Source: an uncultured Acidobacteriota bacterium
GTDB lineage: Bacteria; Acidobacteriota; Vicinamibacteria; Vicinamibacterales; CAVVIG01
Direction of reading: 5' to 3'
DNA length: 33,234 nt
NCBI GenBank assembly: GCA_902825985.1
Contig: CADEDC010000063.1
Span: 1-33,234 of the forward strand
The translations under genes were made by a program, and so were the position numbers. Shown here in pieces: positions 5,303-22,932 of the stretch; within the stretch, counting starts at the first letter, position 1, and every line of letters starts with the position of its first letter. Below the pieces are notes generated by a model. The model was not told where the DNA came from and ran no database searches. It worked only from the letters and a program-made list of their open reading frames with translations.

Positions 5303-6013
5303 TCAGTGGTGAGCGGCGGCGCGCTCTTCGCGTACCGTCTCGTGGACGAATGCTTCGAGGGCCACACGATCCGACACCCAGGTGTCGTCGTAGAACTCGA
5401 CCATCCCGCTGGCCAGGTCGTGCTTGGCACCGACGATGGCCACCTCGCCGCTGCTGATCATCTGCTCGAGGATATAGCTGCGGTTCACGATCGTGCGCAC
5501 CGATCGCCGGATGTTGAGCTCGGTCACGTTCTCGACGAACTGCGCGTTGCGTGAGTTGCGGGCGATCGGATCGACGGTCTTGCTCTCCTCGTAGACCGCC
5601 GGCTGTATTTTCGACAGCAGCTCGGTGAGATTGCCGAGCTCGACGTGATCGCACGCGCCCTTGATAGCGCCACATGACGTGTGGCCGAGCACGACGATCA
5701 GCTTGGACCCGGCGATCTTGCAGGCGAACTCGAGGCTGCCGACGACGTCGGTGTTGACGACGTTGCCGGCGATGCGAATCGCGAAGATGTCGCCGAGCCC
5801 CTGGTCGAAAATCAGCTCCGTCGACGTCCGGCTGTCGATGCAGCTCAGGATGACCGCGAACGGCCACTGGCCTTCGCGAGTCTCGTTCGCCTGCTGCAGC
5901 AGGTTGCGGTTGATCTTCAGGTTGCTGATGAAGCGGACGTTCCCTTCCTTCAAGAACTGCAACGCCTTCTGGGGCGTAATCGTGCGCTGGGTTTCGAAAG
6001 TATGAGCTTTCAT
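5303..6013 (-). CDS. Beta-class carbonic anhydrase
   Basis: A 236-residue zinc enzyme interconverting CO2 and bicarbonate. Ligands and catalytic dyad are all visible: CIDSRT (Cys58, Asp60, Arg62) and HTSCGAI (His111, Cys114). The fold runs from KALQFLKEGNVRF to the C-terminal YDDTWVSDRV segment. No signal peptide is seen, so it should be cytoplasmic. It is transcribed divergently from the SulP-DabA-DabB genes across a 183-nt gap. This fits a role in handling inorganic carbon delivered by those transporters, although a cytoplasmic anhydrase can also dissipate a bicarbonate pool. The GGAG about 12 nt before ATG 6013 is a weak ribosome site. A 9-bp hairpin lies in the leader. Confidence 0.95.
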   Translation of the reverse strand: MKAHTFETQRTITPQKALQFLKEGNVRFISNLKINRNLLQQANETREGQWPFAVILSCIDSRTSTELIFDQGLGDIFAIRIAGNVVNTDVVGSLEFACKIAGSKLIVVLGHTSCGAIKGACDHVELGNLTELLSKIQPAVYEESKTVDPIARNSRNAQFVENVTELNIRRSVRTIVNRSYILEQMISSGEVAIVGAKHDLASGMVEFYDDTWVSDRVALEAFVHETVREERAAAHH

Positions 6014-6045
6014 AAGGATGAGTCACTCCGCAAACGTGATAAGAC

Positions 6046-6069
6046 CTCGCCGGTGGACGGACCGGCGAG
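6046..6069 (-). promoter_or_regulatory. Hairpin in the carbonic anhydrase leader
   Basis: A perfect 9-bp inverted repeat (6046-6054 with 6061-6069) with a 6-nt loop lies about 33 nt upstream of the carbonic anhydrase ATG. Farther upstream (about 6079-6103) is an AT-rich patch, TTTATAAAGATTACATTA on the minus strand, likely to hold the promoter; it is flanked by CGGGCCG/CGGCCCG arms. The hairpin would form in the 5' leader. No known riboswitch class is recognised. Confidence 0.4.
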
Positions 6070-6140
6070 CACGGGCCGACCGTAATGTAATCTTTATAAA
6101 CTTCCGGCCCGGAAGACAAGCACCAGTTCGCTCCACTCCT

Positions 6141-6169
6141 TTGACGCCACCCGGCGCCTGACGTAGAAT
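6141..6169 (+). promoter_or_regulatory. Sigma70-like promoter of the inorganic-carbon uptake genes
   Basis: TTGACG at 6141-6146 and TAGAAT at 6164-6169 are separated by exactly 17 nt, one of the best promoter matches in the window. Transcription would begin near 6176, about 20 nt before the small ORF at 6197 and about 535 nt before the SulP start. Confidence 0.6.
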
Positions 6170-6185
6170 TTATGCCCCTACGTCA
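6159..6185. promoter_or_regulatory. Operator-like inverted repeat over the -10 region
   Basis: TGACGTAG (6159-6166) and its exact reverse complement CTACGTCA (6178-6185) are separated by 11 nt, covering the -10 box and the predicted start point. A dimeric repressor bound here would block the promoter. No regulator gene is adjacent. Confidence 0.45.
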
Positions 6186-6196
6186 TCTGACCGTTC

Positions 6197-6646
6197 ATGA
6201 GCCACCAGCGGATATCCGTCTCGGCAGTGGTGACCCTCCTCGTCGCCGTTGTGGCGATGGGATCGCTGTTCGTGCCGTCGCGACTCCCGCAGGGCGGCCG
6301 CCGCCCGGGTGCACCGGCCCGGGTGTCCCGCACCGCGCAGCGTCTCGATACGGCGGACGCGACCAGTCACGACAGCGATCATCAGGAGCCCGCCGTCGTC
6401 GCCGCCGCCGTGCAGAGGCTGCTGCGGCTCCCCGGCGCCGCCCGGATCGCCGCTGCCGACGGCCGCCTGACGCCGCACGGCCAGACCGCGACGCCGCCTG
6501 CGGTATCGGCTTCTCTGCCGCTCGTCGACGCACGCCCGATCACCGGGCGGTGCATGGTCGGGCGCGGCGTGCCCGAGCTGTCGACACACCTCATCCGGTC
6601 AACGGTCGGGCGCGCCCCCCCGGGCGCCGTGCCTGCCGTCGCTTAA
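6197..6646 (+). CDS. Hypothetical exported or membrane-anchored protein
   Basis: A 149-residue ORF whose N-terminus has a hydrophobic segment (VVTLLVAVVAMGSLFV, about residues 10-25) after a short polar start, as in a signal anchor. The rest is Ala/Pro/Arg-rich and matches no family I recognise. Support comes from its position directly after a strong promoter-like sequence and from filling the gap before the SulP gene. Against it are the lack of a Shine-Dalgarno at ATG 6197 and low-complexity composition. It could instead be an untranslated leader. Confidence 0.35.
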   Translation: MSHQRISVSAVVTLLVAVVAMGSLFVPSRLPQGGRRPGAPARVSRTAQRLDTADATSHDSDHQEPAVVAAAVQRLLRLPGAARIAAADGRLTPHGQTATPPAVSASLPLVDARPITGRCMVGRGVPELSTHLIRSTVGRAPPGAVPAVA

Positions 6647-6678
6647 CCACCTTTCGTTAATCGGGATCGATCGATTCG

Positions 6679-6694
6679 GGGACGTGCGCGTCCC
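6679..6694 (+). promoter_or_regulatory. Short hairpin just upstream of the SulP gene
   Basis: GGGACG (6679-6684) pairs with CGTCCC (6689-6694) across a TGCG loop, 18 nt before ATG 6713. It may affect initiation at the SulP gene, which has only a weak AAGAGAG ribosome site. Confidence 0.3.
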
Positions 6695-6712
6695 GGTGTG
6701 TCCAAGAGAGCC

Positions 6713-8200
6713 ATGCATCATTACCGCTCGATGTTCAGCTACCCGAAGGAAGACTCGGTTGCCGGCGTTGTCGTCTTCCTCGTCGCCCTGCCATTGTGCC
6801 TTGGCATTGCCATCGCTTGCGGCGTGCCACCCGTTTCGGGCCTGATTGCCGGCATCGTCGGCGGCATGATCGTCCCGCTGATCAGCCGATCCGCGCTCTC
6901 GGTGACCGGTCCGGCGGCAGGCTTGACCTCCATCGTGCTGGTCGAAGTGCAGCACCTGGGCGGCCTGGAGCCCTTCCTCACGGCGGTCATCGTCGCCGGT
7001 GGCCTGCAGTTCCTGCTCGGCGTGCTGCGCACCGGGCGATTCACCGCGCTCGTCCCCTCTGCGGTCATCAAGGGGATGCTGGCGGCCATCGGCATCACGA
7101 TCGTCTGGAAGCAGTTGCCGGTCGCCTTCGGCGCGACCGGCGGCGTCTTCGACATTCCGAGTCAGTTCAACCTGGGCGCGGCGGTGCTCGCGACCCTGTC
7201 GCTCGCCATCCTGTACGGCTGGAAGTACACGCCGTTCGGCCGCTATGCCTTCATCTCGCCGGCGCTCGTCGTCGTGGTGGTGGCGAGCGTCGTCGCCGCC
7301 TTCATCCGCGACATGCCGGGCCTGGCGCTCGGCGCCCAGCAGTTCGTCGACGTGCCGCTCGGCGGCGTCAACGCGCTCTACGCCGCCCTGCCACGGCCCG
7401 ACTTCGCGGCGATCGCCAATCCCGCCGTGTGGGTGGCGGGCGCCACGATTGCCGTCGTGGCCAGCATCGAAACGCTGCTGTCGCTGCAGGCGGTCGACCG
7501 CCTCGACCCGCTGAAGCGCCACAGCCCGCCCGACCGCGAACTGCTCGCCCAGGGCACCGCCAACGCCCTCTCGGGCCTGCTCGGCGGCCTGCCGGTGACC
7601 GCCGTGATCGTCCGCAGCGGCGCCAACGTCGCGGCCGGCGGACGCGAGCGGATGTCGGCCCTGGTGCACGGGGTGCTGCTGTTGCTCGCCGTCGTCACGG
7701 CCGGTCCGCTGCTCAACACCATCCCGCTCGCCTGTCTCGCGGCGGTGCTCATCCAGGTCGGCTTGAACCTGTGCAAACCGGCGCTGTTCACGACCCAGAT
7801 CCGGCTCGGTCCACAGCAGCTCGCGCCGTTCGTCCTGACGATCGCCGCGGTGCTGGCGCTCGACCTGCTCAAGGGCGTCATCGTCGGCATCGTCGTCGGC
7901 ATCATGTTCGTGCTCTACGAGAATTCGCGGCGTGCGGTGGTCGCCGAACGCGACTCGGCTGGCGTCGTCCGCATGCGCTTCCGGCGCGATGGCACGTTCG
8001 TGTCGAAGCCCGGCATCGTCTCGACCCTTGACGATGTGGACGATGGCGAGACCGTGGTGATCGACGGCAACGGCGAGTACATCGATCACGACGTCAAGGA
8101 GGTCCTGGCGACGTTCCTGGAAGACGCCAAACAGCGCAACGTCAAGGTCTCGCTCGTCGGCATCGACCTCGGCCTCGCCAAGGCTGGCGGGGGCCACTGA
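6713..8200 (+). CDS. SulP family inorganic anion transporter, probable bicarbonate transporter
   Basis: A 495-residue inner-membrane protein of the SulP/SLC26 family. It begins with the family segment DSVAGVVVFLVALPLCLGIAIACGVPP, has SALSVTGPAAGLTSIV early on and about ten to twelve hydrophobic spans up to residue 400. A short STAS-like cytoplasmic tail (about 405-490) includes VVIDGNGEYIDHDVKEVLATF. SulP members carry sulfate, bicarbonate or other anions; cyanobacterial BicA is a bicarbonate member. The divergent carbonic anhydrase and the dabA gene starting 1 nt after its stop argue for bicarbonate, which is an inference. GTG 6698 is an alternative start; ATG 6713 is preferred because AAGAGAG lies just before it, although closely spaced. 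Confidence 0.92.
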   Translation: MHHYRSMFSYPKEDSVAGVVVFLVALPLCLGIAIACGVPPVSGLIAGIVGGMIVPLISRSALSVTGPAAGLTSIVLVEVQHLGGLEPFLTAVIVAGGLQFLLGVLRTGRFTALVPSAVIKGMLAAIGITIVWKQLPVAFGATGGVFDIPSQFNLGAAVLATLSLAILYGWKYTPFGRYAFISPALVVVVVASVVAAFIRDMPGLALGAQQFVDVPLGGVNALYAALPRPDFAAIANPAVWVAGATIAVVASIETLLSLQAVDRLDPLKRHSPPDRELLAQGTANALSGLLGGLPVTAVIVRSGANVAAGGRERMSALVHGVLLLLAVVTAGPLLNTIPLACLAAVLIQVGLNLCKPALFTTQIRLGPQQLAPFVLTIAAVLALDLLKGVIVGIVVGIMFVLYENSRRAVVAERDSAGVVRMRFRRDGTFVSKPGIVSTLDDVDDGETVVIDGNGEYIDHDVKEVLATFLEDAKQRNVKVSLVGIDLGLAKAGGGH

Positions 8201-8201
8201 C

Positions 8202-11144
8202 GTGAGCGGACACGCCGCCCCTGGTTCCGACGCCGGTCCGGTCGAACGCGCCCTGGCGCGGGCCGCGAACGTGCTGCCGGATCAGGGGCCGATCGGCGTG
8301 TTCGTTCATCACAACACCCTCCACGCCTATCAGCATCAGCCGTTTCACGACGGCGTCCAGGCGGGGGCGCGCGACCTCGGCGCGCGGCCCTATCTGAGCC
8401 TGGGCGAGTTCCGGGCAGCGTGGCGCAGCGGCCGCATCGAGGATCGCGACGTCTGGGAGGAAATCGACCGGGCGCTCGCCGGACGCGCCGACGGATGGCA
8501 ACTGCGTGGGCTCGAGCGGCGCCAGCTGTGGCACACCCTGCTCGTCAGCGATTGCGATCCGGAGGATGCGGCCGGTCTCGCCTTCACCGTCGAGTTCGGC
8601 CGCGCGCCGCAGTGCGCCGACCTGCCGCTGTGGCACGCCGCGCTCGCCCGCGTCACCCGCGGGCCGCGGCCGCAGCCGATCGACGAGCGGACGTTCCGGC
8701 GCCATCGCGACGTGCTGGTGGCGCTCGACGGCGACGACAGCGACGTGCCGGTGCACGCCGAACTGATCCGCCTGGGGTCTGGCTTCCTCGATCACGGACA
8801 CGCCCGGGTTGCGCTGCCGAGTCGCGAGCGTGGCTTCCTGCCCGCGGTCAGCGAGCTCTATGCGAACGGCGGTCCCGAGCCGCGTGCCTGTGCGGGGGTC
8901 GCCGCCGACATGCGGGCGCTGGCGCACGAATCAGCTGATGCCGTCGCCGTCATCCACCGGGCGCTCGGGCAGCTCGGCGTCCACGGCGCCGACGTCGAAC
9001 CGTTCGTGTTCGCGACCGCCCTGGCACTTCCCGGCTGGTCCGGCATGTTCTCGCGGCTGGAGCGCCATCCGCACGAGCATGTCTGCGACCGGCCGCCAAC
9101 GCTCGCCGAGTTCATCGCGGTGCGCCTGTTGCTCGAGCGCCGTGCCGTCGGTCAGGTCTGTTCCGGATTGCACCTGCCGATCGTCTGGCCGGAGCTGCGC
9201 CGGCACATCCCGCCGCCACCGGTGCGTCCGGCGATCCTGGACGCGGCGCTGCTGTGGCCGATTGCCCGATCGGCCGGCTGGTCACCCGCCGCGGTCGCCG
9301 ACTTGACGGACGCCGACCTCGACACCCTCTGGCGTGAATGCGCCGCATGCCCGCCGCTCATGCGGCGCCGCCTGTTCCATGAGGCGTACGAGCGCACCTA
9401 CCGGCGCTGGATTCTCGATGCGGTCGCAGCGCGCCGCGCACTGCCGCCCGACGGGTCGACCGAACGACCGCGGGCGCAGTTCGTCTTCTGCATCGACGAG
9501 CGGGAGGAATCCATCCGCCGGTCGATCGAGGAACAGCACCCGCTCTACCTGACCTTCGGGGTTGCCGGCTTCTTCGGGATCGCGATGGACTATCGCGGCC
9601 TGTACGACCGGGAGGCGGCCGCCTACTGTCCCGTGGTCGTCACGCCCGCCCACGAGGTGCACGAGCGCGCGGTCGCCACCGAGCTCAATTGGCACGACTT
9701 GCGGCTGCGCCTGCGGGACCGCTGGCACGACTGGGAGCGGCGGGCGGCCGCCGCGTCGCGGACGCTGTCCGGTGGCGCCGGCCTGTCGTTCCTGCTCGGA
9801 CCGTTCTCGGCCGTCAAGACGCTGGCGCAGGTGCTGGCGCCGCGCCGGCTGTCGGCCCTCGGCGATCAGGTCAAGTCGCGGGTTGCGCCGCGCCCGGCGA
9901 CGCGGCTGTCGGCGCTGCGGCCGGCCGGCGGGGCGGCGGCAGCGGTGGACGCCGGCCACGGCGCGGCCGCGGCGAAACCCGTCGGCTTCTCGCTCGACGA
10001 GGCGGCCGATCGGGTGACGTCGACGCTGCGCAACATCGGCCTCGTCCGCGATTTCGCGCCGATTGTCGTCGTCCTGGGTCACGGATCGACCAGTCTCAAC
10101 AATCCGCACGAGTCGGCGCACGACTGCGGCGCCTGCGGCGGGCGCCGCGGCGGCGCCAACGCCCGCCTGTTCGCCGACATGGCGAATCGTCCGGACGTGC
10201 GCGAGGCGGTCCGCCAGCGCGGCGTCGACATCCCGTCGGACGTCTGGTTCGTCGGCGCGCTGCACGATACCGCCGACGACGGCGTCTCGTACTACGAGCT
10301 CGAAGCCCTGCCGGCGTCGCACGCCACCTGCTTCCAGGAAGCCCACGCGGCGTTGGAGGCCGCCCGCCGCGAGAACGCGCTCGAACGCAGCCGCCGTTTC
10401 GACGATGCACGGCTCGACGAGCGTTCGGAAGAGGCCCTGAAGCACGTGCAGTCGCGCTCGACGCTGCTCGCCCAGCCGCGGCCCGAGTACGGGCACTGCA
10501 CGAACGCGGTCTGCATCGTCGGACGGCGATCGGTGACGCGCGGCCTGCACCTCGATCGGCGGGCATTTCTGGTCAGCTACGATCCGACCACCGACCCCGA
10601 CGATTCGGTGATCGAACGGATTCTCGCCGCCGTCGGTCCGGTCGGCGCCGGAATCAGCCTCGAGTACTACTTCTCGTCGGTCGACAACGAAACCTTCGGC
10701 TGCGGCACGAAGCTGCCGCACAACGTGACCGGCCTCATCGGGGTGATGAACGGCCATCAGAGCGACTTGCGGACCGGCTTGCCGCTGCAGATGGTGGAAA
10801 TCCACGAGCCGATGCGGCTGCTGCTCATCGTCGAGGCGACGCCGGCGGCGCTGCTGCGAGTCGCGTCACGCCAGCCCGAGGTCGCCGAGCTCGTCGTCAA
10901 CGCCTGGGTGCAGCTCGTCTCGCTCGACCCGGCGACCGGCGCGATGCAGGAATTCGTCGACGGCCGCTTCGTGCCGTACGTGCCGGAACCGACGCTGCTG
11001 CCGGTCGTCGACCGATCGCCGGAGTGGCACCTGCGGTCGCGCGCCCACCTGACGCCGGCGCTGGTGCGACGCGCGCTGCCGGCCGCCGCGGTCGGCCACG
11101 ACCGGCAACCCGGACACGAGCCGGCGGGAGCCCTTGGTGCCTGA
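8202..11144 (+). CDS. dabA: Inorganic carbon transporter subunit DabA (DUF2309/UPF0753)
   Basis: A 980-residue protein of the DUF2309 family, the peripheral, carbonic-anhydrase-like subunit of the DAB CO2-uptake complex. The putative zinc site is intact: Cys430 and Asp432 in FVFCIDEREESIRRS, His627 in VLGHGSTSLNNP and Cys642 in HDCGACGG. The spacing of two residues between the first pair and fifteen between the second matches characterised DabA. It is thought to hydrate CO2 to bicarbonate in one direction, driven through the ion-translocating DabB. The start is GTG 8202, 1 nt after the SulP stop, with a GGGGG run about 8 nt upstream. The stop overlaps the next gene by 8 nt, implying translational coupling. 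The length is at the long end for the family. Confidence 0.95.
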   Translation: MSGHAAPGSDAGPVERALARAANVLPDQGPIGVFVHHNTLHAYQHQPFHDGVQAGARDLGARPYLSLGEFRAAWRSGRIEDRDVWEEIDRALAGRADGWQLRGLERRQLWHTLLVSDCDPEDAAGLAFTVEFGRAPQCADLPLWHAALARVTRGPRPQPIDERTFRRHRDVLVALDGDDSDVPVHAELIRLGSGFLDHGHARVALPSRERGFLPAVSELYANGGPEPRACAGVAADMRALAHESADAVAVIHRALGQLGVHGADVEPFVFATALALPGWSGMFSRLERHPHEHVCDRPPTLAEFIAVRLLLERRAVGQVCSGLHLPIVWPELRRHIPPPPVRPAILDAALLWPIARSAGWSPAAVADLTDADLDTLWRECAACPPLMRRRLFHEAYERTYRRWILDAVAARRALPPDGSTERPRAQFVFCIDEREESIRRSIEEQHPLYLTFGVAGFFGIAMDYRGLYDREAAAYCPVVVTPAHEVHERAVATELNWHDLRLRLRDRWHDWERRAAAASRTLSGGAGLSFLLGPFSAVKTLAQVLAPRRLSALGDQVKSRVAPRPATRLSALRPAGGAAAAVDAGHGAAAAKPVGFSLDEAADRVTSTLRNIGLVRDFAPIVVVLGHGSTSLNNPHESAHDCGACGGRRGGANARLFADMANRPDVREAVRQRGVDIPSDVWFVGALHDTADDGVSYYELEALPASHATCFQEAHAALEAARRENALERSRRFDDARLDERSEEALKHVQSRSTLLAQPRPEYGHCTNAVCIVGRRSVTRGLHLDRRAFLVSYDPTTDPDDSVIERILAAVGPVGAGISLEYYFSSVDNETFGCGTKLPHNVTGLIGVMNGHQSDLRTGLPLQMVEIHEPMRLLLIVEATPAALLRVASRQPEVAELVVNAWVQLVSLDPATGAMQEFVDGRFVPYVPEPTLLPVVDRSPEWHLRSRAHLTPALVRRALPAAAVGHDRQPGHEPAGALGA

Positions 11145-12435
11145 CCTGCTACACCTGATGCTGGCGCTCGCGATCATCGCGCCGCTGCTCGCCGTGCCGG
11201 CGATCGGCGTACGCGTGCTGCTCGCCGACCGCTTCCCGGGTGAGGATGTCGCGTACAGGTTGTCGGCCGCCGGTTTGCTGCTGTCGACCCTCGCCAGCGT
11301 CGTCGTGTTCGGGTTCTTCGCCGGGGCGTTCGGCGAACCGGTGCGCGGCGAAATCGAGTTCGGGCGTTGGCTGCAGATCCACGACTACGAGATCCCGCTG
11401 GTGCTGCTCGTCGACCGGGTCTCGGTGACGATTTCGCTGTTCGCCGTCCTCCTGACGGTGGTCGTGGCGCGTTTCTCGCGCACCTACCTGCACAAGGAAC
11501 CGGGCTTCGTGCGCTTCTTCGTGCTGCTGGCGTTTTTCGCGACCGGCACGCAGCTCGTCGCGCTCGCCGGCGCGCTCGAGCTCTTCTTCGCCGGCTGGGA
11601 GGTCCTCGGCATCTCGTCGGCGATGTTCATCGGTTTCTTCCACGAACGCGACGAACCGGTCCGGTCGTCGGTGCGGGCCTTCGGCACCTACCGGTTCGCC
11701 GACGCCGGCCTGCTCATCGCGACCGTCGTGACCTTCGAGCTGCTGGGATCGGCGCGGTTCTCGGCGCTCGGCCGCGCCGGGACGTTGCCGGCCGCCGAGT
11801 CGACGCTCATCGCGCTGCTGTTCCTGCTGTCGGCGATGGGCAAGTCGGCCCAGCTGCCGTTCTCCGGCTGGCTGCCGCGCGCGATGGAAGGGCCGACGCC
11901 CTCGAGCGCGCTGTTCTACGGCGCCGTCTCGATTCACGCCGGGCTCTTCCTGCTGCTGCGCGTCTGGCCGGTCCTCGAGGTGTCGCCGGTGGCGCGCGCG
12001 GCCGGGGTCGTCGTCGGCCTGGCCACAGCGGTGTACGCGGCGCTGGTGGTCCGCGTCCACACGGATGCCAAGGGCGCGCTGGCGCACGCGACGCTCGCTC
12101 AGGTCGGCCTGATCGTCGTGGAGATCTGCCTGGGTTGGATCACGCTCGCCCTGGTGCACCTCGTCTGCCACGCACTGCTGCGGCTCGGCCAGTATCTGCG
12201 CGCACCAAGCCTGATTCACGACAGCCATCGGTTCGGCCATGCACACCATCGGCCGTCGCTGCTCGAGCGGGCGGCCCCGCGCCTGGCGGTGCGTGCGTAT
12301 GCCGCGTCGCTGCACCGTCTCCGCCTCGATGACCGGATCGACCAGGCGTTCTCGCCGGCCCTGACCGTGGCCCGGGCGATCGACCGGATCGATCGTCGCC
12401 TGCGGTCGGCGCTGTCACTGGACGGCCCGTCGTGA
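11137..12435 (+). CDS. dabB: NuoL-like membrane subunit DabB
   Basis: A 432-residue polytopic protein of the proton-antiporter (NuoL/M/N, MrpA) family, partner of DabA. Ion-path residues are present: Glu155 in LFFAGWEVLGISS and Lys236 in LLSAMGKSAQLPFSGWLPRAM, followed by EGPTPSSALFYGAVSIHAGLFLL. Hydrophobicity stops near residue 360 and the last 70 residues are His/Arg-rich and amphipathic, so it is shorter than many DabB proteins. The start is taken as GTG 11137, 6 nt after GGGAG (11126-11130); TTG 11134 would be too close. It overlaps dabA by 8 nt, and its stop overlaps the next ATG. Confidence 0.9.
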   Translation: MPDLLHLMLALAIIAPLLAVPAIGVRVLLADRFPGEDVAYRLSAAGLLLSTLASVVVFGFFAGAFGEPVRGEIEFGRWLQIHDYEIPLVLLVDRVSVTISLFAVLLTVVVARFSRTYLHKEPGFVRFFVLLAFFATGTQLVALAGALELFFAGWEVLGISSAMFIGFFHERDEPVRSSVRAFGTYRFADAGLLIATVVTFELLGSARFSALGRAGTLPAAESTLIALLFLLSAMGKSAQLPFSGWLPRAMEGPTPSSALFYGAVSIHAGLFLLLRVWPVLEVSPVARAAGVVVGLATAVYAALVVRVHTDAKGALAHATLAQVGLIVVEICLGWITLALVHLVCHALLRLGQYLRAPSLIHDSHRFGHAHHRPSLLERAAPRLAVRAYAASLHRLRLDDRIDQAFSPALTVARAIDRIDRRLRSALSLDGPS

Positions 12436-13583
12436 TGTTCCTCGACGCGTTGTCGGCGCCGTGGGAGACCCTGGCGTTCTGTCTGCTGCTGCTGCTCGCG
12501 CCGGTCGTCGCCGCGCCGCGGTCGCACCGCCCCCCGGTCTGGCATGCGGTCGCACTTGCCGGCACCCTCGTCGGCACGCTGTTCGTCGCCGACCCGGCGC
12601 TCGCCTTCCTGGCCGCGTCGTTGTCCGCGGGCATCCACGCGCTCAGCGCCTGGCCGTCGACGCGCACCGGTGCGGTGGCGCTCCTCGTGTCGGCGCTCCT
12701 GACCGTGGGGGTGGCGGCGGCGGTCGGCGCCGACCAGATTTCCGCGGCGTTCCTGCTGTCGACCGTCGCGGTGGCGATGCGGGCCGGTGCGATGCCGTTC
12801 CACGCCGGCATCGTCAGCCTCTGCGATCGCGCACCCCGCGTCCAGACGCAACAGCTGGCATCCACCATCGCGCTCGTCTTCATCCACCTGCGCTTCGTCG
12901 ATCATCACGACGAAGCGGTCGCCCTCGCTCCGATGATCGTGCGCTTCGGCGCCGGTGCGGCGTTTGCGGCGGCGTTGATGTCGACCGTCCAGCGCGACCT
13001 GCGCGGCTTCTTCCGCAGCACGACGGCGGTGCACGGCGGCATGGTGATCGCCGCCCTGGGGGCAGCCAGCCTGCACAACTATGCGGCGGCGCTGCTCGTC
13101 ACGGTGTCGGCCGGCCTCGGCCTCGGCGGACTCGGGATCATGATCGCGGCACTCGAGGAGCGGGTCGGCATCGTCACCTACAGCCGCGCCAACGGCCGCG
13201 GCGAGGCGTTTCCGCGGCTGGCGGCGGCGTTCGCGCTCTTCGGTGCGGCCAGCGTCGCGATGCCTGGCACGGCCGGGTTCGTCGCCGACGATCTGCTGCT
13301 GCACACGCTGTGGATGGAGAGCCCGGTGGGAACGGTGGTGGTCATCCTGGCGAGCGCCATGCTCGCCGTGTCGACGCTCATCTGCTACTCGCACGTGTTT
13401 CTCGGCAGGCCGACGGCCCTGCTGGCCCCCGACCTCATCCCGCGCGAACGGGTCGTCGCCGTCGCGCTGGCGGCGCTGCTGCTGGTGCTCGGTTTCGCGC
13501 CGGGGCTGTTGCTCTATCCAGCCGACGCGTTCCTCGAGACGGTCCCGACCATCGCGGCGTCACCGCGACCGGCCGGGCCGTGA
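12435..13583 (+). CDS. Second, divergent NuoM/NuoL-like membrane protein of the Dab operon
   Basis: A 382-residue polytopic membrane protein, mostly hydrophobic, resembling a worn antiporter-type subunit of complex I. LLSTVAVAMRAGAMPFHAGIVSLCDRAPRVQT lines up with the TM7 region of NuoM/NuoL, but Arg116 stands where those have the essential Lys. QRDLRGFFRSTTAVHGGMV matches the DLKRLIAYSSVSHMG region, again with Arg190 for Lys. MPGTAGFVADDLLL resembles the PGxxGFxGE motif. ATG 12435 overlaps the dabB stop (TGATG), so its translation is coupled to DabB. It may complete a short DabB, form a second ion channel or be an assembly subunit. Well-studied DAB systems need only DabA and DabB, so its role is open. 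Confidence 0.8.
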   Translation: MFLDALSAPWETLAFCLLLLLAPVVAAPRSHRPPVWHAVALAGTLVGTLFVADPALAFLAASLSAGIHALSAWPSTRTGAVALLVSALLTVGVAAAVGADQISAAFLLSTVAVAMRAGAMPFHAGIVSLCDRAPRVQTQQLASTIALVFIHLRFVDHHDEAVALAPMIVRFGAGAAFAAALMSTVQRDLRGFFRSTTAVHGGMVIAALGAASLHNYAAALLVTVSAGLGLGGLGIMIAALEERVGIVTYSRANGRGEAFPRLAAAFALFGAASVAMPGTAGFVADDLLLHTLWMESPVGTVVVILASAMLAVSTLICYSHVFLGRPTALLAPDLIPRERVVAVALAALLLVLGFAPGLLLYPADAFLETVPTIAASPRPAGP

Positions 13584-16991: not shown

Positions 16992-18404
16992 CTATCGGCG
17001 CGCGTACATATCGAGAATTGCCTCGATGGCGCGCCGACACACCACGCAGAAAGGCACGTCGTCGCGGGTGAACATGATGCAATCCGACTGCGGCCGGTAG
17101 TAGCCGCGCGCCTCGTAGTTCGCTCCCTCGAATGCGCCGACCAGGCCGCCGTGCGGCCGGCCATTCAGCAGCGCCGTGTCGCGCAGCATCTCGTCGCGGA
17201 AGAGGGCGTTCATCTCGGCCTCGGGCCGGTTCTGGGCGCGGATCTCGCGACGGCGCTCCTGCCGCTGCTTGGTGTCCCGCTCGAAGTCGTCCTTCGGCCA
17301 GGGCGTCGGCAGCGGCGTGCCCGGCAGGACGAGGTCCTTCCACTTCAGGCTGGCCGGGTCGAGCAGCGCCGTGACGTTCGGCTCCCACGGCTCGATCTTG
17401 TCCGTCGGCGGCAGATAGGCGACGTCGGAGGTGTAGTACTCGTCCGCCAGGCCGGCGATGTGATGGCCGAACTCGTGCACGAAAATGTAGGGTGCCCAGG
17501 CGCTGTCGGCGGCCACCGTCGCGTAGAGGTTGAAGATGCCGCCGCCGCCGTAGGTCGACGAGTTCGTCAGGATTTCGACCACTTCATACGGCGCATTCGC
17601 CGCAATCTCGCGGAATGCCCGATTCTCCATCGTCAGGATGTAGCGCTCCGAATCGAACGTGTCGTACGACGTCCCGAGCGGCGAGCTGCGGTGCAGCGTA
17701 CCGGATGGACGCGAGATGCCCGACTGCGCCGCCGCCGGCACCAGCCCCCAGACGTTGATGTCCTTCTCCCGCTCCTTGAACGGCGAGGTGCTGAAGAACA
17801 CCTTCAACAGGCGGCGGGCGTCCCGTTCGAACTTGCCACGTTCGCGCGCCGTGTAGCCGTCACCGAGAATCAGCAGGTCGAGCTTGTCTTCCGGCGACCC
17901 GGCCTTGTGCAACTCGATGAGCGGCCCGGCGGCGGCCGGTGGGATGCCGCGGACGATGAACTTGTCCGCCGGATCCAGGGTGAACGTCCAGACGTCGCGG
18001 AACTCGTTGCGGGCGTCGCGCTTGCGGACGGTGATGGTCGCGGTCCTGTCGACCGCCGGAAAACGTAACGATTCGGAGAACGTCCGGTGCATCTGCCGCG
18101 CTTCGCCGGTGGTCTCCCATTCGCCGTAGATCGACGCGAAGCCACGCGAATACAGCACGCGGCCGCTCGCGGCGTCGGCGACTTCGAAGAAGTACTTGCC
18201 GAGATTGGACCCGTCGATCGGCCTGGCCGGATTGCCCGGCCATGGCAGAGGCTCGACGACGATTCGGTCGAGGCTGAAGCGCTCCTCTTTGTCGGTGCCG
18301 GTATGGTAGTAATCGACGCGCATGGTCGCGGGGGCGGCCTGGCCCGGCACAGCCGCGGTCAGCGTCAGGATCAACAGCGTCAACGCCAGCGCCGCTCTTC
18401 TCAT
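16992..18404 (-). CDS. Secreted M64 family metallopeptidase (IgA-peptidase-like)
   Basis: A 470-residue protein with a signal peptide (MRRAALALTLLILTLTAAVPGQAA). An M64 N-terminal beta-domain follows (about 25-165: MRVDYYHTGTDKEERFSLDRIVVEPLPWPG). The catalytic domain has LDLLILGDGYTARE near 177 and the zinc motif HEFGHHIAGLADEY, with His310, Glu311, His314 and Asp321. This elongated HExxHxxGxxD pattern is the M64 signature. The C-terminus has CIMFTRDDVPFCVVCRRAI, with Cys residues seen in the family. It is probably exported and hydrolyses proteins outside the cytoplasm; the IgA link is only a family name. ATG 18404 is chosen over 18428 because GAGGGAG lies about 8 nt upstream and the signal peptide then starts properly. 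Confidence 0.92.
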   Translation of the reverse strand: MRRAALALTLLILTLTAAVPGQAAPATMRVDYYHTGTDKEERFSLDRIVVEPLPWPGNPARPIDGSNLGKYFFEVADAASGRVLYSRGFASIYGEWETTGEARQMHRTFSESLRFPAVDRTATITVRKRDARNEFRDVWTFTLDPADKFIVRGIPPAAAGPLIELHKAGSPEDKLDLLILGDGYTARERGKFERDARRLLKVFFSTSPFKEREKDINVWGLVPAAAQSGISRPSGTLHRSSPLGTSYDTFDSERYILTMENRAFREIAANAPYEVVEILTNSSTYGGGGIFNLYATVAADSAWAPYIFVHEFGHHIAGLADEYYTSDVAYLPPTDKIEPWEPNVTALLDPASLKWKDLVLPGTPLPTPWPKDDFERDTKQRQERRREIRAQNRPEAEMNALFRDEMLRDTALLNGRPHGGLVGAFEGANYEARGYYRPQSDCIMFTRDDVPFCVVCRRAIEAILDMYARR

Positions 18405-18505
18405 CGGTGACTCCCTCGCTGACACCATAGCATGCAGGTGGCGGCCGGCCGCCGCCGGCGGCGTCGATGGCCGGGCCGACTCGGACCGGTGACTGGAGTG
18501 CTGGT

Positions 18506-19609
18506 GTGGAGCGCCACGACGGATTGGATACCAACGGCCTCGTCGCCGGTCTGTTGCGCGAGCTGGCCGCGGTGCAGACCTCGACGCAGAAGAGGTGGGG
18601 CTACAAGCGCGCGGCGGACGCCATTCTCGCGCTCGACTCGCCGCTCGAGTCGTACGTGAGGGCCGACGGCACCGTGCGGAAGATCGCGAATGTCGGACCC
18701 TCGTCCGAGCGGATCATCCTCGAGGTCGTGCGGACCGGGTCGTCGGCGACGGTGGCGGAGGCGGTCGGGCTGTCGGGTGTCGATGCAGACGGCGACCGTC
18801 GGCGGGCGCACTTCCTGAGCGGTGCCCAGGTGGCCGCGGCGCTGGCCGACGACACGCTGGACGGCCCGTCGCTCGACGACTATCGCGGCGATCTGCAAAT
18901 GCACTCCACCTGGAGCGACGGCACGGTGTCCGTCGCCGAGATGGCGCGCGCCTGCCGGTCGCGTGGCTACGAGTTCTGCGCGATCACGGACCACTCCTAC
19001 GGTCTGCCGATCGCGCACGGCGTGTCCATGGCTGACCTCGCCCGGCAGCACCGTGAGATCGAGGTCGTGAACCGGCGCTACAGGGGTCGCTTCCGGGTGC
19101 TCAAAGGCATCGAAGCGAACATCCTGGGTGACGGGCGACTGGATATGAAGCCGGACGAGCTCGCCCGCGTCGAGCTCGTGGTGGCTTCACCGCACTCCGG
19201 ACTGAGGGTCGAGGCCGACCAGACGGCGCGCATGGTGACGGCCGTGTCGACCCCGGGCGTTCACATCCTGGGACACCCGCGGGGGCGCCAGATCGGGTCG
19301 CGCCCGGGCATCAGGGCCAACTGGAAGAAGGTGTTCGAGCGCGCGGCCAGGACCGGCGTCGCGATCGAGATCGACGGCGACCCGCGTCGTCAGGACATCG
19401 ACTACCGCCTGGCCGAGCAGGCGCGGGCCGCGGGGTGCTTCTTCGCGCTCGACAGCGATGCCCACGCGCCGGACGAACTCGGTTTCGCCGAAGTCGCCGT
19501 CGCCCACGCGCGCCTCGCCGGCCTGCCGATGTCCCGGGTCGTCAACTGCTGGCCGCTGGATCGGCTGCTCGAGTGGATGCACCTGCGATCCATATGGAGC
19601 GACCGCTAA
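18506..19609 (+). CDS. PHP-domain phosphoesterase with PolX-like N-terminal helical domain, no polymerase domain
   Basis: A 367-residue protein. Residues 1-80 (LLRELAAVQTSTQKRWGYKRAADAILALDSPLESY to GPSSERIILEVVRTG) resemble the helix-hairpin-helix 8-kDa domain of DNA polymerase beta/X. The PHP domain (about 125-350) has GDLQMHSTWSDG (His133), ITDHSYGL (Asp162, His163), KGIEAN (Glu203), ASPHSG (His230), GHPRGR (His257) and ALDSDAH (Asp318, His320), a nearly complete metal site with Gln for the first His. The central polymerase palm of full PolX is absent. It probably acts as a nuclease or phosphatase. GTG 18506 has GGAG 7 nt upstream; ATG 18467 is the alternative. Its 3' end overlaps the convergent methyltransferase gene. 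Confidence 0.88.
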   Translation: MERHDGLDTNGLVAGLLRELAAVQTSTQKRWGYKRAADAILALDSPLESYVRADGTVRKIANVGPSSERIILEVVRTGSSATVAEAVGLSGVDADGDRRRAHFLSGAQVAAALADDTLDGPSLDDYRGDLQMHSTWSDGTVSVAEMARACRSRGYEFCAITDHSYGLPIAHGVSMADLARQHREIEVVNRRYRGRFRVLKGIEANILGDGRLDMKPDELARVELVVASPHSGLRVEADQTARMVTAVSTPGVHILGHPRGRQIGSRPGIRANWKKVFERAARTGVAIEIDGDPRRQDIDYRLAEQARAAGCFFALDSDAHAPDELGFAEVAVAHARLAGLPMSRVVNCWPLDRLLEWMHLRSIWSDR

Positions 19610-20324
19610 TCACCTGGTGGCGCAGGCCGGCGGCGCGATCCAGCTTGGCCACGAGCGGCGGCAGCGGAACCGTGAACCGCCATTCGTCGGCGCGGCCGCC
19701 GGCGTCGAGAAAGGGGATCAGGTCACGCTCCCACCAGGGCGAGACGCCCTTGGCCAGCGGTTCGACGATCAGCACCTGGTTCCCGCATGCGGCGCGGTCG
19801 AGCAGGCGCGCCACCAGGCCGCGACGCGCCTCATCCGTCAATTCGTTCAGCGCAAAGGCCGCGAGATAGGCACGGCCCTTCGGCAACGGATCGCGACCGA
19901 TGTCGCCGATCACGGCACGACCGGCGAGTCCGAGGTCTCGATACGAACGGTTCGCCTCACCTACGGCCCACGGATGCCGGTCGACGCCGTGCAGCGCGGG
20001 CGGCCGCTCGCAGCGGCTCGCCCAGCCGGCGCCGGCGGCGCCGGTGCCGCAGCCGAGGTCGACGAGCGCGCCCGCCACCGACGAGGCGCCTGGCAGCTCG
20101 GCCGCGATTGCCCGCAACAGCAGGAAGTGCAGCGGCCCGTAGAAGAGCGCGAAGGCCGCACGCTTCCCGTTCCCCGACAACGCCGCACCGTCGCGGAGCC
20201 CGCCCCGCCGTTCGACGTAGGTGGACGAGAGCGCCCGCAGGGCGCGCGTCACCTCGCGGAACTGGAGATCGGCGAGGTGACGATCCTCGAGCGCCGCCAT
20301 CCATCCGTCGAGGCGACTGCTCAC
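19542..20324 (-). CDS. SAM-dependent methyltransferase, Rsm22-like
   Basis: About 260 residues from GTG 20324 (GGCGGG 6 nt upstream). The helical N-terminus, FREVTRALRALSSTYVERRGGLRDGAALSGNGKRAAFALFYGPLHFLLLRAIAAEL, resembles the ribosomal small-subunit Rsm22-like family (PF09243). A SAM-binding DLGCGTGAAG (89-98) follows, then ALHGVDRHPWAVGEANRSYRDLGL. The Cys motif of mitochondrial Rsm22 is not visible. The open frame extends to 20507, but that would run into the divergent PA2779-like gene, so a downstream start is preferred; ATG 20300 is another choice. Its last 68 nt lie opposite the end of the PHP gene. The methyl acceptor is unknown. Confidence 0.72.
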   Translation of the reverse strand: MSSRLDGWMAALEDRHLADLQFREVTRALRALSSTYVERRGGLRDGAALSGNGKRAAFALFYGPLHFLLLRAIAAELPGASSVAGALVDLGCGTGAAGAGWASRCERPPALHGVDRHPWAVGEANRSYRDLGLAGRAVIGDIGRDPLPKGRAYLAAFALNELTDEARRGLVARLLDRAACGNQVLIVEPLAKGVSPWWERDLIPFLDAGGRADEWRFTVPLPPLVAKLDRAAGLRHQVISGRSIWIAGASTRAADPAASS

Positions 20325-20360
20325 GCCGGCCCGCCGTTCCGCGCCACCGGCGGGCCACCG

Positions 20361-20396
20361 TATACTGATGCTCGCGCCCTGGGTGCGCGTAGGAGG
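20361..20396 (+). promoter_or_regulatory. -10 box and strong ribosome site of the PA2779-like gene
   Basis: TATACT at 20361-20366 is a 5-of-6 match to a -10 box; the -35 region is poor. AGGAGG at 20391-20396 is a perfect Shine-Dalgarno 5 nt before ATG 20402. The transcript would have a leader of about 30 nt. Confidence 0.5.
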
Positions 20397-20401
20397 TGTG
20401 G

Positions 20402-20794
20402 ATGCGTCTGCTTTGTCATCTGGTGGCTGCGATACTGATTGTGGGTCTTGGAACGGCGTCGGCCCAGGCCCAATCGCGTCACGTCGTGGCCCCCGGTTCT
20501 CTCGCAACCGCGGTGCGCCTGCAGGCCGAGGCGCAGGACGCGGATCGTGCGGCGGTGCAGCGCACCATCGCCCACCCCGACGTGCAGCGCGCGGCGGCGG
20601 CCGCCGGCATCGACATGGCCCGGGTGGCGGCCGCGGTCGGCACCATGGCGGCGGACGATCTCGCCCGGACGGCCACGGCGGCGCGCAGCGTCGACCAGTC
20701 GCTCGTCGGCGGCGCGTCGACCATCGTGATTTCGACCACGACGATCATAATCGGACTGCTGGTGCTGATCCTGCTGATCGTCGCGCTCGACTGA
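20402..20794 (+). CDS. PA2779 family small exported protein with Gly-Gly motif and C-terminal transmembrane helix
   Basis: A 130-residue protein with a signal peptide (MRLLCHLVAAILIVGLGTASAQAQ). A helical middle follows (about 45-100; HPDVQRAAAAAGIDMARVAAAVGTMAADDLART), then Gly103-Gly104 in SLVGGAST, and a very hydrophobic end (TIVISTTTIIIGLLVLILLIVALD). The VxxxLxxxGID...AVGTMxxDDL pattern and the GG before the last helix resemble the PA2779 family of Pseudomonas and others. That family is usually found, as here, beside a PA2778-type cysteine peptidase, whose gene starts 8 nt downstream. The family's function is unknown. The Gly-Gly fits the specificity of C39 peptidases, so it may be the peptidase's substrate; this is an inference. 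Confidence 0.8.
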   Translation: MRLLCHLVAAILIVGLGTASAQAQSRHVVAPGSLATAVRLQAEAQDADRAAVQRTIAHPDVQRAAAAAGIDMARVAAAVGTMAADDLARTATAARSVDQSLVGGASTIVISTTTIIIGLLVLILLIVALD

Positions 20795-20802
20795 TCGGCG
20801 CG

Positions 20803-22932
20803 ATGCCGGACGACCACCCCCGCCGGCGCGCCCAACGGCCCGAGGGCGCGTTGCGGGCTGGCCGGCTGCTGCTCGCGCTGCTGACGCTCGGCGCGCCGGT
20901 TCGCGCGGTCGCCGCCGAGCCGGGTGCGCCCGCCTCCTTCCTCGCCGTCCCGTTTCTTCCGCAAACCGAAGCGCTGTGCGGCGGCGCCGCCGCCGCGATG
21001 TTGTTCCGCTACTTCGGCGATCGACACGCCGACGTCGAGCAGTTCGCGCCGCTCGTCGACCGGACCCGTGGTGGCATCGCCGCCGACCGCCTGGTCGAGG
21101 CTATCGCGGCACGCGGCTGGCGGACCACGCTGTCGTCGGGAACGCTCGACGGGTTGCGCGCCGAACTCGCGCAGCAGCATCCGCCGATGCTGCTGATCGA
21201 GGACCGGCCGTCCCGCTACCATTTCGTCGTCGCCGTCGGCGCGGACGCCGCCCATGTCTACCTGCACGACCCGACCTGGGGCCCGCGTCGATCGATGCCG
21301 ATTGGCGAGTTCGCGCGCGTCTGGCGCGTCACCGCAAACTGGATGCTGACCGTCGCACCGGGCAGCCCGCCGGTGGCGACGGCGGCCCCGCCGATTGAGG
21401 CGGCGCTTTCGCCGGTGGCTTCGGCGGTGCGTCCCGCTTCCCCGGCAACGGCGTGCGACCGGGCCGTGGACGAAGCCGTGGACGCCGTCCGGGCGCAGGG
21501 CCTGGACGCCGCCGACCGCATCTTCGGCACCGTGCGGACGACGTGTCCCACGGCGTCCCGTCCGTTGAGCGAACTCGCCGGCATCCGTTTCGCGCAGCAG
21601 CGCTACGCCGATGCGATCGAACTCGCCGGCACCGCCGTCGACCTCGACCCGCACGATGCCTACGCATGGGACGTGCTTGGCTCGAGCCGCTTCGTGCAGC
21701 GCGACGTACCGGGCGCGCTCGCTGCCTGGAATGTCATTGGCCGGCCCCGTCTCGACCTCATACGCATCGAAGGCCTCGCGCACACGCGCTATGCGTTCGT
21801 CGCGCAGTCGCTGCCGCTGGTGCCGAACGCCGTGGTCACGGCGGACGCGTACCGCCTGGCCCAGCGCCGACTGGGCGATTTGCCAGGGCTGACGGCGGCG
21901 CAGCTGCGGCTGACGCCCACGGAGGACGGCTGGGCCGAGGTGACCGCGGCGGTGCTCGAACGCCAGTCGCTGCCCGACAACCGGCTGGCCTGGCTGACGT
22001 TCGGCGCCCGGACCGCCGTCGGCCGGGCGATTTCGGTGGAGGCGCCAGGATGGACCGGCCAAAGCGACCGCTGGACCGCCAATTGGCGCTGGTGGAACAA
22101 CCGGCCGCGGATCGCCGTCGGGTTCGCCGCGCCGTCAGCGGGGCGGATCCGCGGCGTCTGGCAGGTCGACGCCTCGTGGACCAAGCAGGCGTTCGCGAGC
22201 GGCGCCGGCCAGGCCGGCCAGCGGGAGACGCAGCAGCATGCCTCCCTGACCCTGTCGGACTGGATTCGGCCCGACCTCCGCTACACCGTGCGCGGCACCG
22301 TCGACAGCTGGCAGGACGACGGGATCACGGCGCGCGGCCGCACCGTGGGTACGGGACTGGCGCTCGAGCGTCACTTCGCCGCCGACCGATGGATCGTCAG
22401 CGCCGAAGGACGGGTGTGGTGGCCGGCAGATGCGAACCCGGCGCCACTGGCGGTCGCCAGCCGCCGTTTCCAATCGATTGACCTGCAGACCGCGGCGCGG
22501 TCGACGACGACGGACCGTGGCTTCGTGACGCTGACGACGCTCGGTACGCGTGCCGTGTCGGCCGCCGCGCCGCGCCTCCTCTGGCCGGGCGCCGGTGACG
22601 TCGACGCGAGATCTCCGATGCTACGGGCGCATCCGCTCACCCGTGATGGCGTCATCGACAGTCCGGCATTCGGCCGGCGCCTCGTCTTCGCATCGATCGA
22701 ACAGCGGCGCTGGTTCAATCGGAGCCCGATCCTTCGCGTCGCGGTCGCCGGTTTCATCGATGCCGCACGCGCGTGGCAGCCGGCAGACGGCGATCGGCGG
22801 CGACGGCTCGTCGTCGACGCCGGTGTCGGACTGCGTGTCCGCGTTCCGGGGCACGACGACGTGCTGCGAGTCGACTATGGACACGGCCTCCGCGACGGCG
22901 CCCACGTCGTCTCCATCGGCTGGGCCCGCTGA
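20803..22932 (+). CDS. PA2778-type C39-like cysteine peptidase fused to TPR, POTRA-like and Omp85-like beta-barrel regions
   Basis: A 709-residue protein. The signal peptide is about 1-38. A papain-fold C39-like domain (about 44-185) has Gln54, Cys59 (QTEALCGG), His140 (RYHFVVAVG) and Asp156 (LHDPTWG). TPR-like helices run about 220-300 (AELAGTAVDLDPHDAYAWDVLG type). A POTRA-like segment (about 320-390) reads ADAYRLAQRRLGDLPGLTAAQLRLTP. The remaining 300 residues are amphipathic strands, ending in FASIEQRRWFN, VAGFIDAARAW and DDVLRVDYGHGLRDGAHVVSIGW, which look like the last strands of Omp85/FhaC barrels. Family members in Pseudomonas are, as I recall, C39 plus TPR only. The peptidase would face the periplasm. 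It is translated 8 nt after the PA2779-like gene. Confidence 0.8.
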   Translation: MPDDHPRRRAQRPEGALRAGRLLLALLTLGAPVRAVAAEPGAPASFLAVPFLPQTEALCGGAAAAMLFRYFGDRHADVEQFAPLVDRTRGGIAADRLVEAIAARGWRTTLSSGTLDGLRAELAQQHPPMLLIEDRPSRYHFVVAVGADAAHVYLHDPTWGPRRSMPIGEFARVWRVTANWMLTVAPGSPPVATAAPPIEAALSPVASAVRPASPATACDRAVDEAVDAVRAQGLDAADRIFGTVRTTCPTASRPLSELAGIRFAQQRYADAIELAGTAVDLDPHDAYAWDVLGSSRFVQRDVPGALAAWNVIGRPRLDLIRIEGLAHTRYAFVAQSLPLVPNAVVTADAYRLAQRRLGDLPGLTAAQLRLTPTEDGWAEVTAAVLERQSLPDNRLAWLTFGARTAVGRAISVEAPGWTGQSDRWTANWRWWNNRPRIAVGFAAPSAGRIRGVWQVDASWTKQAFASGAGQAGQRETQQHASLTLSDWIRPDLRYTVRGTVDSWQDDGITARGRTVGTGLALERHFAADRWIVSAEGRVWWPADANPAPLAVASRRFQSIDLQTAARSTTTDRGFVTLTTLGTRAVSAAAPRLLWPGAGDVDARSPMLRAHPLTRDGVIDSPAFGRRLVFASIEQRRWFNRSPILRVAVAGFIDAARAWQPADGDRRRRLVVDAGVGLRVRVPGHDDVLRVDYGHGLRDGAHVVSIGWAR

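Follow-up and report, generated by a model that had tools for sequence, protein, structure and literature searches.

C39 peptidases cut after Gly-Gly, Gly-Ala or Gly-Ser, and grip the leader helix of the substrate through positions −4, −7 and −12, occupied by Val-4, Leu-7 and Leu-12 (PMC6363468). One of them, FapD, is located in the periplasm, and its catalytic Cys is required for secretion (PMC5557850). The Omp85 proteins of the outer membrane are marked by the lid-lock motifs (V/I)RG(Y/F) and (F/G)xDxG, the second of which starts with F in TamA and BamA and with G in FhaC (PMC4490367). A 2014 survey sorted these proteins into ten subfamilies and named a patatin-like, a WD40-like and a “metalloprotease” type, but its text contains neither the word C39 nor the word peptidase (PMC4104836). 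The enzyme domain of the Omp85 protein PlpD was at first taken to be secreted but proved to remain in the periplasm (PMC11116518). The papers on a further related pair, PA2778/PA2779, gave no function in the literature searched.

Here, we describe a gene cassette from an uncultured Acidobacteriota bacterium (contig CADEDC010000063.1), found in a stretch of 33,234 nucleotides that we refer to as the window. The two halves of its main protein are of known kind. Novelty, as far as this could be checked, lies in their combination, in its conservation and in the candidate substrate linked to it. A search of open-licence papers gave no account of a C39-Omp85 protein, so one may exist outside these. 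The cassette points to a cut-and-deliver system in the cell envelope of a kind that has not been described.

Domain architecture of the fused protein

The open reading frame at 20803-22932 on the + strand runs from ATG to stop in one frame and encodes 709 residues, which are predicted from sequence and model to form a signal peptide, a C39 peptidase, TPR repeats, one POTRA and an Omp85 barrel:

20803..20916, + strand: signal peptide region, residues 1-38 (hydrophobic helix 15-28, then a low-confidence region in the model)
20932..21372, + strand: C39 peptidase domain, residues 44-190 (Pfam PF03412, ComA peptidase profile match, invariant residues)
20962-20964, + strand: catalytic Q54 (34/34 in the family alignment)
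20977-20979, + strand: catalytic C59 (34/34)
21220-21222, + strand: catalytic H140 (34/34)
21268-21270, + strand: catalytic D156 (34/34)
21373..21441, + strand: flexible linker, residues 191-213 (pLDDT <50 at 192-209)
21442..21738, + strand: TPR domain, residues 214-312 (model helices 217-310, TPR matches)
21454-21456, + strand: C218, probable disulfide to C248
21544-21546, + strand: C248, probable disulfide to C218
21739..21969, + strand: single POTRA, residues 313-389 (strand-helix-helix-strand-strand in the model; TamA alignment from residue 313)
21970..22929, + strand: Omp85 β-barrel, residues 390-709 (model, Foldseek, VIA-align)
22558..22671, + strand: loop L6 of the barrel, residues 586-623, with LRAH at its tip (model and alignment)
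22624-22626, + strand: Arg608 in L6, lid-lock residue (34/34)
22753..22767, + strand: strand-13 motif F651-x-D653-x-A655, lid-lock partner of Arg608 (F and D 34/34, A 32/34)

An AlphaFold2 model made from 34 aligned sequences (pLDDT 87.8, pTM 0.85) contained a papain-like domain, a disordered linker (192-209), TPR helices (217-310), a POTRA-like unit (316-386) and the strands of the barrel (409-708). The preliminary description had proposed this order of domains from the letters alone and had named structure prediction as a check. Profiles, AlphaFold2, Foldseek and VIA-align bore the order out, and the papain-like domain, the POTRA and the Omp85-type barrel were all present in the predicted structure. 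The Foldseek and VIA-align matches were taken up by the barrel, and the assignment of the C39 and TPR domains comes from sequence profiles and the model.

Pfam PF03412 matched residues 56-185 (E 2.4e-8, 34.3 bits with a cut-off of 22), and a family profile searched against solved structures retrieved the ComA peptidase domain (E 5.9e-8) together with many TPR proteins. Weak TPR matches in Pfam fell at residues about 249-309. The Gln, Cys, His and Asp/Asn that make up a C39 active site are present as Q54, C59, H140 and D156, exactly the set named in the preliminary description; each was invariant in the alignment of fused homologues, whose 34 rows underlie the conserved-residue counts given here for the fused protein. 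The protein scored 47.4 bits against the PA2778 family NF033920, below the cut-off of 150. A PlpD-type patatin domain had no Pfam match in the window protein, which has the C39 domain instead.

The enzyme had been proposed to lie in the periplasm, and the signal peptide, also seen at the N-terminus of homologues, and the barrel support this placement. It is further supported by a pair of cysteines, since C218 and C248 co-vary (both present in 31 of the 34 rows, both absent in L038 and L062) and a disulfide between them would fit the periplasm. In most family members this pair and the catalytic residue are the only cysteines, three in all, and a C218-C248 disulfide is the simplest reading of the alignment. 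A periplasmic C39 enzyme is not in itself new; FapD is an earlier example (PMC5557850), and PA2778-type proteins are barrel-less cousins.

The outer-membrane barrel

A Pfam search with the barrel part alone gave no match, and the NCBIfam model Omp85_fam matched weakly (18.1 bits, with a cut-off of 200); the identity of the barrel was therefore decided by structure. The best 50 Foldseek matches listed were all Omp85 proteins (BamA, TamA, FhaC and CdiB), with a best E of 4e-13. VIA-align gave a Z of 22.7 to E. coli TamA (347 residues within 313-709), 22.6 to a barrel-only structure of E. coli TamA (277 residues) and 22.7 to D. radiodurans BamA (293 residues). The protein has two marks of the Omp85 superfamily, at least one POTRA ahead of the barrel (residues 313-389) and a barrel of the Omp85 fold.

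The barrel begins near residue 390, and 15 strands of at least three residues could be traced at 409-708 in the model. An apparent helix (residues 394-407, 21982-22023; pLDDT about 87-89) occupies the expected position of Omp85 strand 1, which in BamA makes up one side of the lateral gate. Of the 16-strand barrel named in the preliminary description, the Omp85 barrel itself stood, with 15 clear strands in the model and an apparent helix at the strand-1 position.

The Omp85 lid-lock pair, an Arg in L6 and an Asp in strand 13, is represented by R608 and D653, both present in 34 of 34 homologues. The surrounding residues diverge from the full TamA/BamA motifs, (V/I)RG(Y/F) and FxDxG, in that LRAH and FxDxA are found here, along with a single POTRA only. 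The GxDxG of TpsB proteins (FhaC) is likewise replaced by FxDxA. The C-terminal part had been compared to Omp85/FhaC; the Omp85 part of that comparison was right and the FhaC part was not, FxDx being the lid-lock motif of the TamA/BamA type (PMC4490367). By these residues, the fused protein represents a divergent Omp85 subfamily, nearer to the TamA/BamA type in its lid-lock trait.

The PA2779-like partner

A small gene lies 8 bases upstream of the fused gene:

20402..20794, + strand: PA2779-like partner, 130 residues (NF033919 35.4 bits with a cut-off of 40; alignment; AlphaFold2 pLDDT 84.4)
20708..20713, + strand: Gly103-Gly104 of the partner, proposed C39 cleavage site (extended, between helix 84-102 and membrane helix 111-129)

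Its product has a signal peptide, a helical domain predicted to be periplasmic, a Gly-Gly and a C-terminal membrane helix. The window partner falls short of the NF033919 cut-off, whereas relatives from the same cassette (e.g., those of G007 and G321) pass it. In the AlphaFold2 model, the signal helix is followed by four helices (31-102), an extended stretch (103-110) with the Gly-Gly at its start, and a hydrophobic helix (111-129).

In the partner alignment, G103 was conserved in 36/36 sequences and G104 in at least 90%, with one row (L065) shifted. When the partners were aligned on the motif, Gly-Gly was found in 36/36, a bulky hydrophobic residue at −4 in 94%, and mostly Ala or Val at −3. 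An LSxxEL-like motif occurs at −23 to −18, compared to −12 to −7 in classical leaders, a displacement by 11 residues, or about three helix turns outward. Such a shift retains the helix face, yet is a real difference from classical leaders. The tail beyond the Gly-Gly is strongly conserved across phyla, with an ISTTTIII core. A cluster of basic residues is common at the end of single-span membrane anchors; the partner tail ends without one.

Distribution and genomic linkage

Thirteen sequences from relatives of the source genome, including that of the window, were aligned. A single-sequence search of the genome contigs gave no match, and an alignment-based scan of the named genomes yielded 39 loci, some of them in the same genomes as the relatives in the 13-sequence alignment. 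Most of the loci belong to Acidobacteriota; others are from Gemmatimonadota, Eisenbacteria and Krumholzibacteriota, and single metagenome bins carried the labels Polyangiaceae and Deltaproteobacteria, which may be wrong. The same architecture is encoded as single open frames in more than 30 genomes, which belong to several phyla, so that the search suggested in the preliminary description for other Acidobacteriota found it there and beyond. (In two metagenome bins, L065 and L069, overlapping frames take the place of one intact fused gene, through frameshift or sequencing error.)

The partner was adjacent to the fused gene in 36 of the 39 loci (L060 included), and lay downstream rather than upstream of it in G030 and G042. 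The three loci without an adjacent partner were L057, in which the contig starts 89 bases ahead of the fused gene, L070, in which the contig ends inside it, and L063. In the last (L063:8884-10077), the fused gene stops just past the POTRA and no partner was found on the coding strand; it is probably a decaying copy. Among 21 genomes, the partner was present in 13/13 with the fused protein and in 0/8 same-family relatives without it, including with/without pairs inside one genus (G000 and G001; G022 and G008). The fused gene and its partner are gained or lost together. The fused protein had been described as a self-contained machine, a view that the data do not uphold, because a conserved partner comes along with it. 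A third gene conserved across phyla was looked for near the cassette and none was found, no full-length relative was found on plasmids, and a search for defence systems gave no match.

Other genes in the window include a carbonic anhydrase (5303-6013), a SulP-type permease, a DabA inorganic-carbon transporter subunit and two proton-antiporter-like proteins, which together (5303-13583) look like a carbon-uptake locus. An M64 (IgA-type) metallopeptidase is encoded on the − strand at 16992-18428, and frames resembling it also occur close to the cassette in three or four related loci. A methyltransferase-like gene (19542-20507, − strand) is transcribed away from the cassette. Its frame, taken from stop to stop, had matches at 13 other loci, a count possibly inflated by overlap with the partner gene on the opposite strand.

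Three gene arrangements

PA2779-like genes were surveyed with family profiles in 297 genomes of the window's phylum, and three arrangements were distinguished. Beside the fused C39-TPR-POTRA-barrel gene with its partner, there are eight split loci (L106-L113), in which the order is partner, C39 alone, and TPR-POTRA-barrel; the boundary between the last two genes corresponds roughly to linker 191-213 of the fused protein. The third arrangement (L101-L105 and L116) has a C39-TPR protein that carries a lipobox-like signal, and lacks a nearby barrel, similar to the PA2778 form. L119 (G106) adds to the split arrangement: its C39 and barrel genes are paired, at a distance of about 4 kb from the PA2779-like partner, which is on the opposite strand. 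A quick C39 tree, midpoint-rooted, without support values and thus a rough grouping only, separated the three arrangements. Partners in the split and lipoprotein-like clades mostly have Ala-Ala-Gly or Ala-Gly instead of Gly-Gly at the motif.

The split operons indicate, from gene order, that the three modules remain coupled when they are not fused. In these operons, the barrel gene stays beside the C39 gene, and the barrel is thus coupled to a peptidase that it cannot anchor covalently. The lipoprotein-like form shows that the predicted peptidase and its partner can exist without a co-encoded barrel. Two tandem PA2779-like genes stand beside a single C39 gene at L109, L113 and L105, as for one enzyme with several substrates, and PA2779-like genes without an adjacent C39 gene occur at L114 (G264) and L115 (G082).

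Proposed mechanism and alternatives

The explanation that we favor, and consider reasonably probable as a whole, is that a periplasmic C39 peptidase held at the outer membrane cuts the partner at its Gly-Gly, and that the barrel passes on or inserts a product. The fused protein would sit in the outer membrane through its barrel, with the peptidase, TPR and POTRA in the periplasm, and the partner would at first be lodged in the inner membrane, its helical domain facing the periplasm. The C39 domain would grip the helix ending at the Gly-Gly, as double-glycine peptidases grip leaders, while the TPR and POTRA held the substrate. A cut after the Gly-Gly would part the helical domain from the hydrophobic tail, and, in the least certain step, the barrel would pass on or insert one of the products. 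In favor of this mechanism are the domain architecture, the active site, intact in every homologue, the linkage and co-occurrence of the partner, the Gly-Gly in 36/36 partners with residues at −4 and −3 that resemble those of C39 leaders, its modeling as an extended linker, and the constant gene order of the eight split operons. PlpD is a precedent for an enzyme domain that stays periplasmic (PMC11116518). FapD, by analogy, supports a role for a periplasmic C39 enzyme in serving an outer-membrane pathway. Against it are the Ala-Ala-Gly or Ala-Gly motifs of other clades, the leader-like motif displaced by 11 residues, the partner tail ending without a basic cluster, and the lipoprotein-like version, which implies that the barrel is dispensable in some lineage. 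Processing of the partner by the C39 domain is the better-supported half, and is likely. Transport by the barrel, as export or insertion, is on weaker ground and somewhat doubtful; it should not be assumed, because the enzyme domain of PlpD proved to be periplasmic (PMC11116518). More tentative still is the full pathway of two components, in which an inner-membrane-tethered precursor would be cut by a peptidase built into an Omp85 protein that also exports or inserts the product, without ATP.

We considered the possibility that the barrel is an anchor only, and that the protein is a tethered periplasmic peptidase in which Omp85 transport has been lost. The cut would then free the helical domain of the partner into the periplasm, for envelope signaling or quality control. 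PlpD provides a precedent (PMC11116518), another kind of anchor, the lipobox-like signal, replaces the barrel in another clade, and the helix at strand 1 (394-407) and the Gly-to-Ala changes in the motifs could mean that transport was lost. However, the eight split operons keep the barrel as a separate protein, which makes covalent anchoring of the peptidase impossible there, and the lid-lock Arg and Asp are retained in 34/34 homologues; we regard a mere anchor as a plausible minority reading. It is unlikely that the PA2779-like protein is instead an uncut adaptor or inner-membrane anchor that docks via its Gly-Gly helix, with exported proteins encoded elsewhere as the substrates. The Gly-Gly is not strict across clades, the study of FapD did not establish the target of that enzyme (PMC5557850), and some partner-like genes have no C39 gene nearby (L114 and L115), but a single C39 gene accompanied by one partner gene or by two in tandem (L105, L109 and L113) resembles an enzyme with its substrates, and an extended, accessible Gly-Gly beside a helix suits a cut site.

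The order of leader helix, Gly-Gly and short hydrophobic peptide is also that of double-glycine precursors, and the 26-residue hydrophobic tail could be a bacteriocin-like active peptide, freed in the periplasm and delivered outward. Since the tail with its ISTTTIII core is conserved over phyla rather than diversified, and no third gene conserved across phyla was found nearby as a possible immunity gene, we consider this very improbable. A chance fusion or an assembly artefact has a negligible probability, given that the same open frame recurs across several phyla, in more than 30 genomes; an artefact of assembly as the source of the fusion was ruled out by independent homologues with the same single frame.

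Comparison with known systems

With a subfamily that is conserved, has its peptidase intact and is genetically linked to a candidate substrate, two questions become testable: which substrates periplasmic C39 enzymes such as FapD and PA2778 act on, and whether Omp85 proteins that bear an enzyme have any transport function. The uncharacterized PA2778/PA2779 pair of Pseudomonas now has a concrete mechanism to test. That pair (NF033920 and NF033919) resembles the cassette in that a C39 domain is followed by a tail and its gene neighbors that of a small protein with a signal peptide and a C-terminal helix, but PA2778, with a model length of 255 positions, lacks both POTRA and barrel. The patatin-Omp85 protein PlpD (type Vd) has the same layout of N-terminal enzyme, one POTRA and Omp85 barrel, with the enzyme domain in the periplasm (PMC11116518). 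It differs in being a lipase, in lacking TPR repeats, and in that no Gly-Gly partner gene has been described for it.

TamA, BamA and FhaC share the POTRA and the Omp85 barrel with the lid-lock Arg and Asp (Z about 19 to 22.7), whereas they carry more POTRAs and no enzyme domain, and the window protein has LRAH and FxDxA as its motifs. FapD of the Fap amyloid system is also a periplasmic C39 enzyme required by an outer-membrane secretion pathway (PMC5557850); however, it is a separate protein, its partners are unrelated, and its pore, FapF, is a 12-stranded trimeric barrel rather than an Omp85 protein. The PCAT/AMS exporters (ComA and LahT) have in common with the cassette the C39 domain and the Gly-Gly with a hydrophobic −4 residue in the presumed substrate. 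In contrast, their C39 domain is cytosolic and part of an ABC transporter, their leaders are N-terminal, and the spacing of the leader motif differs by 11 residues.
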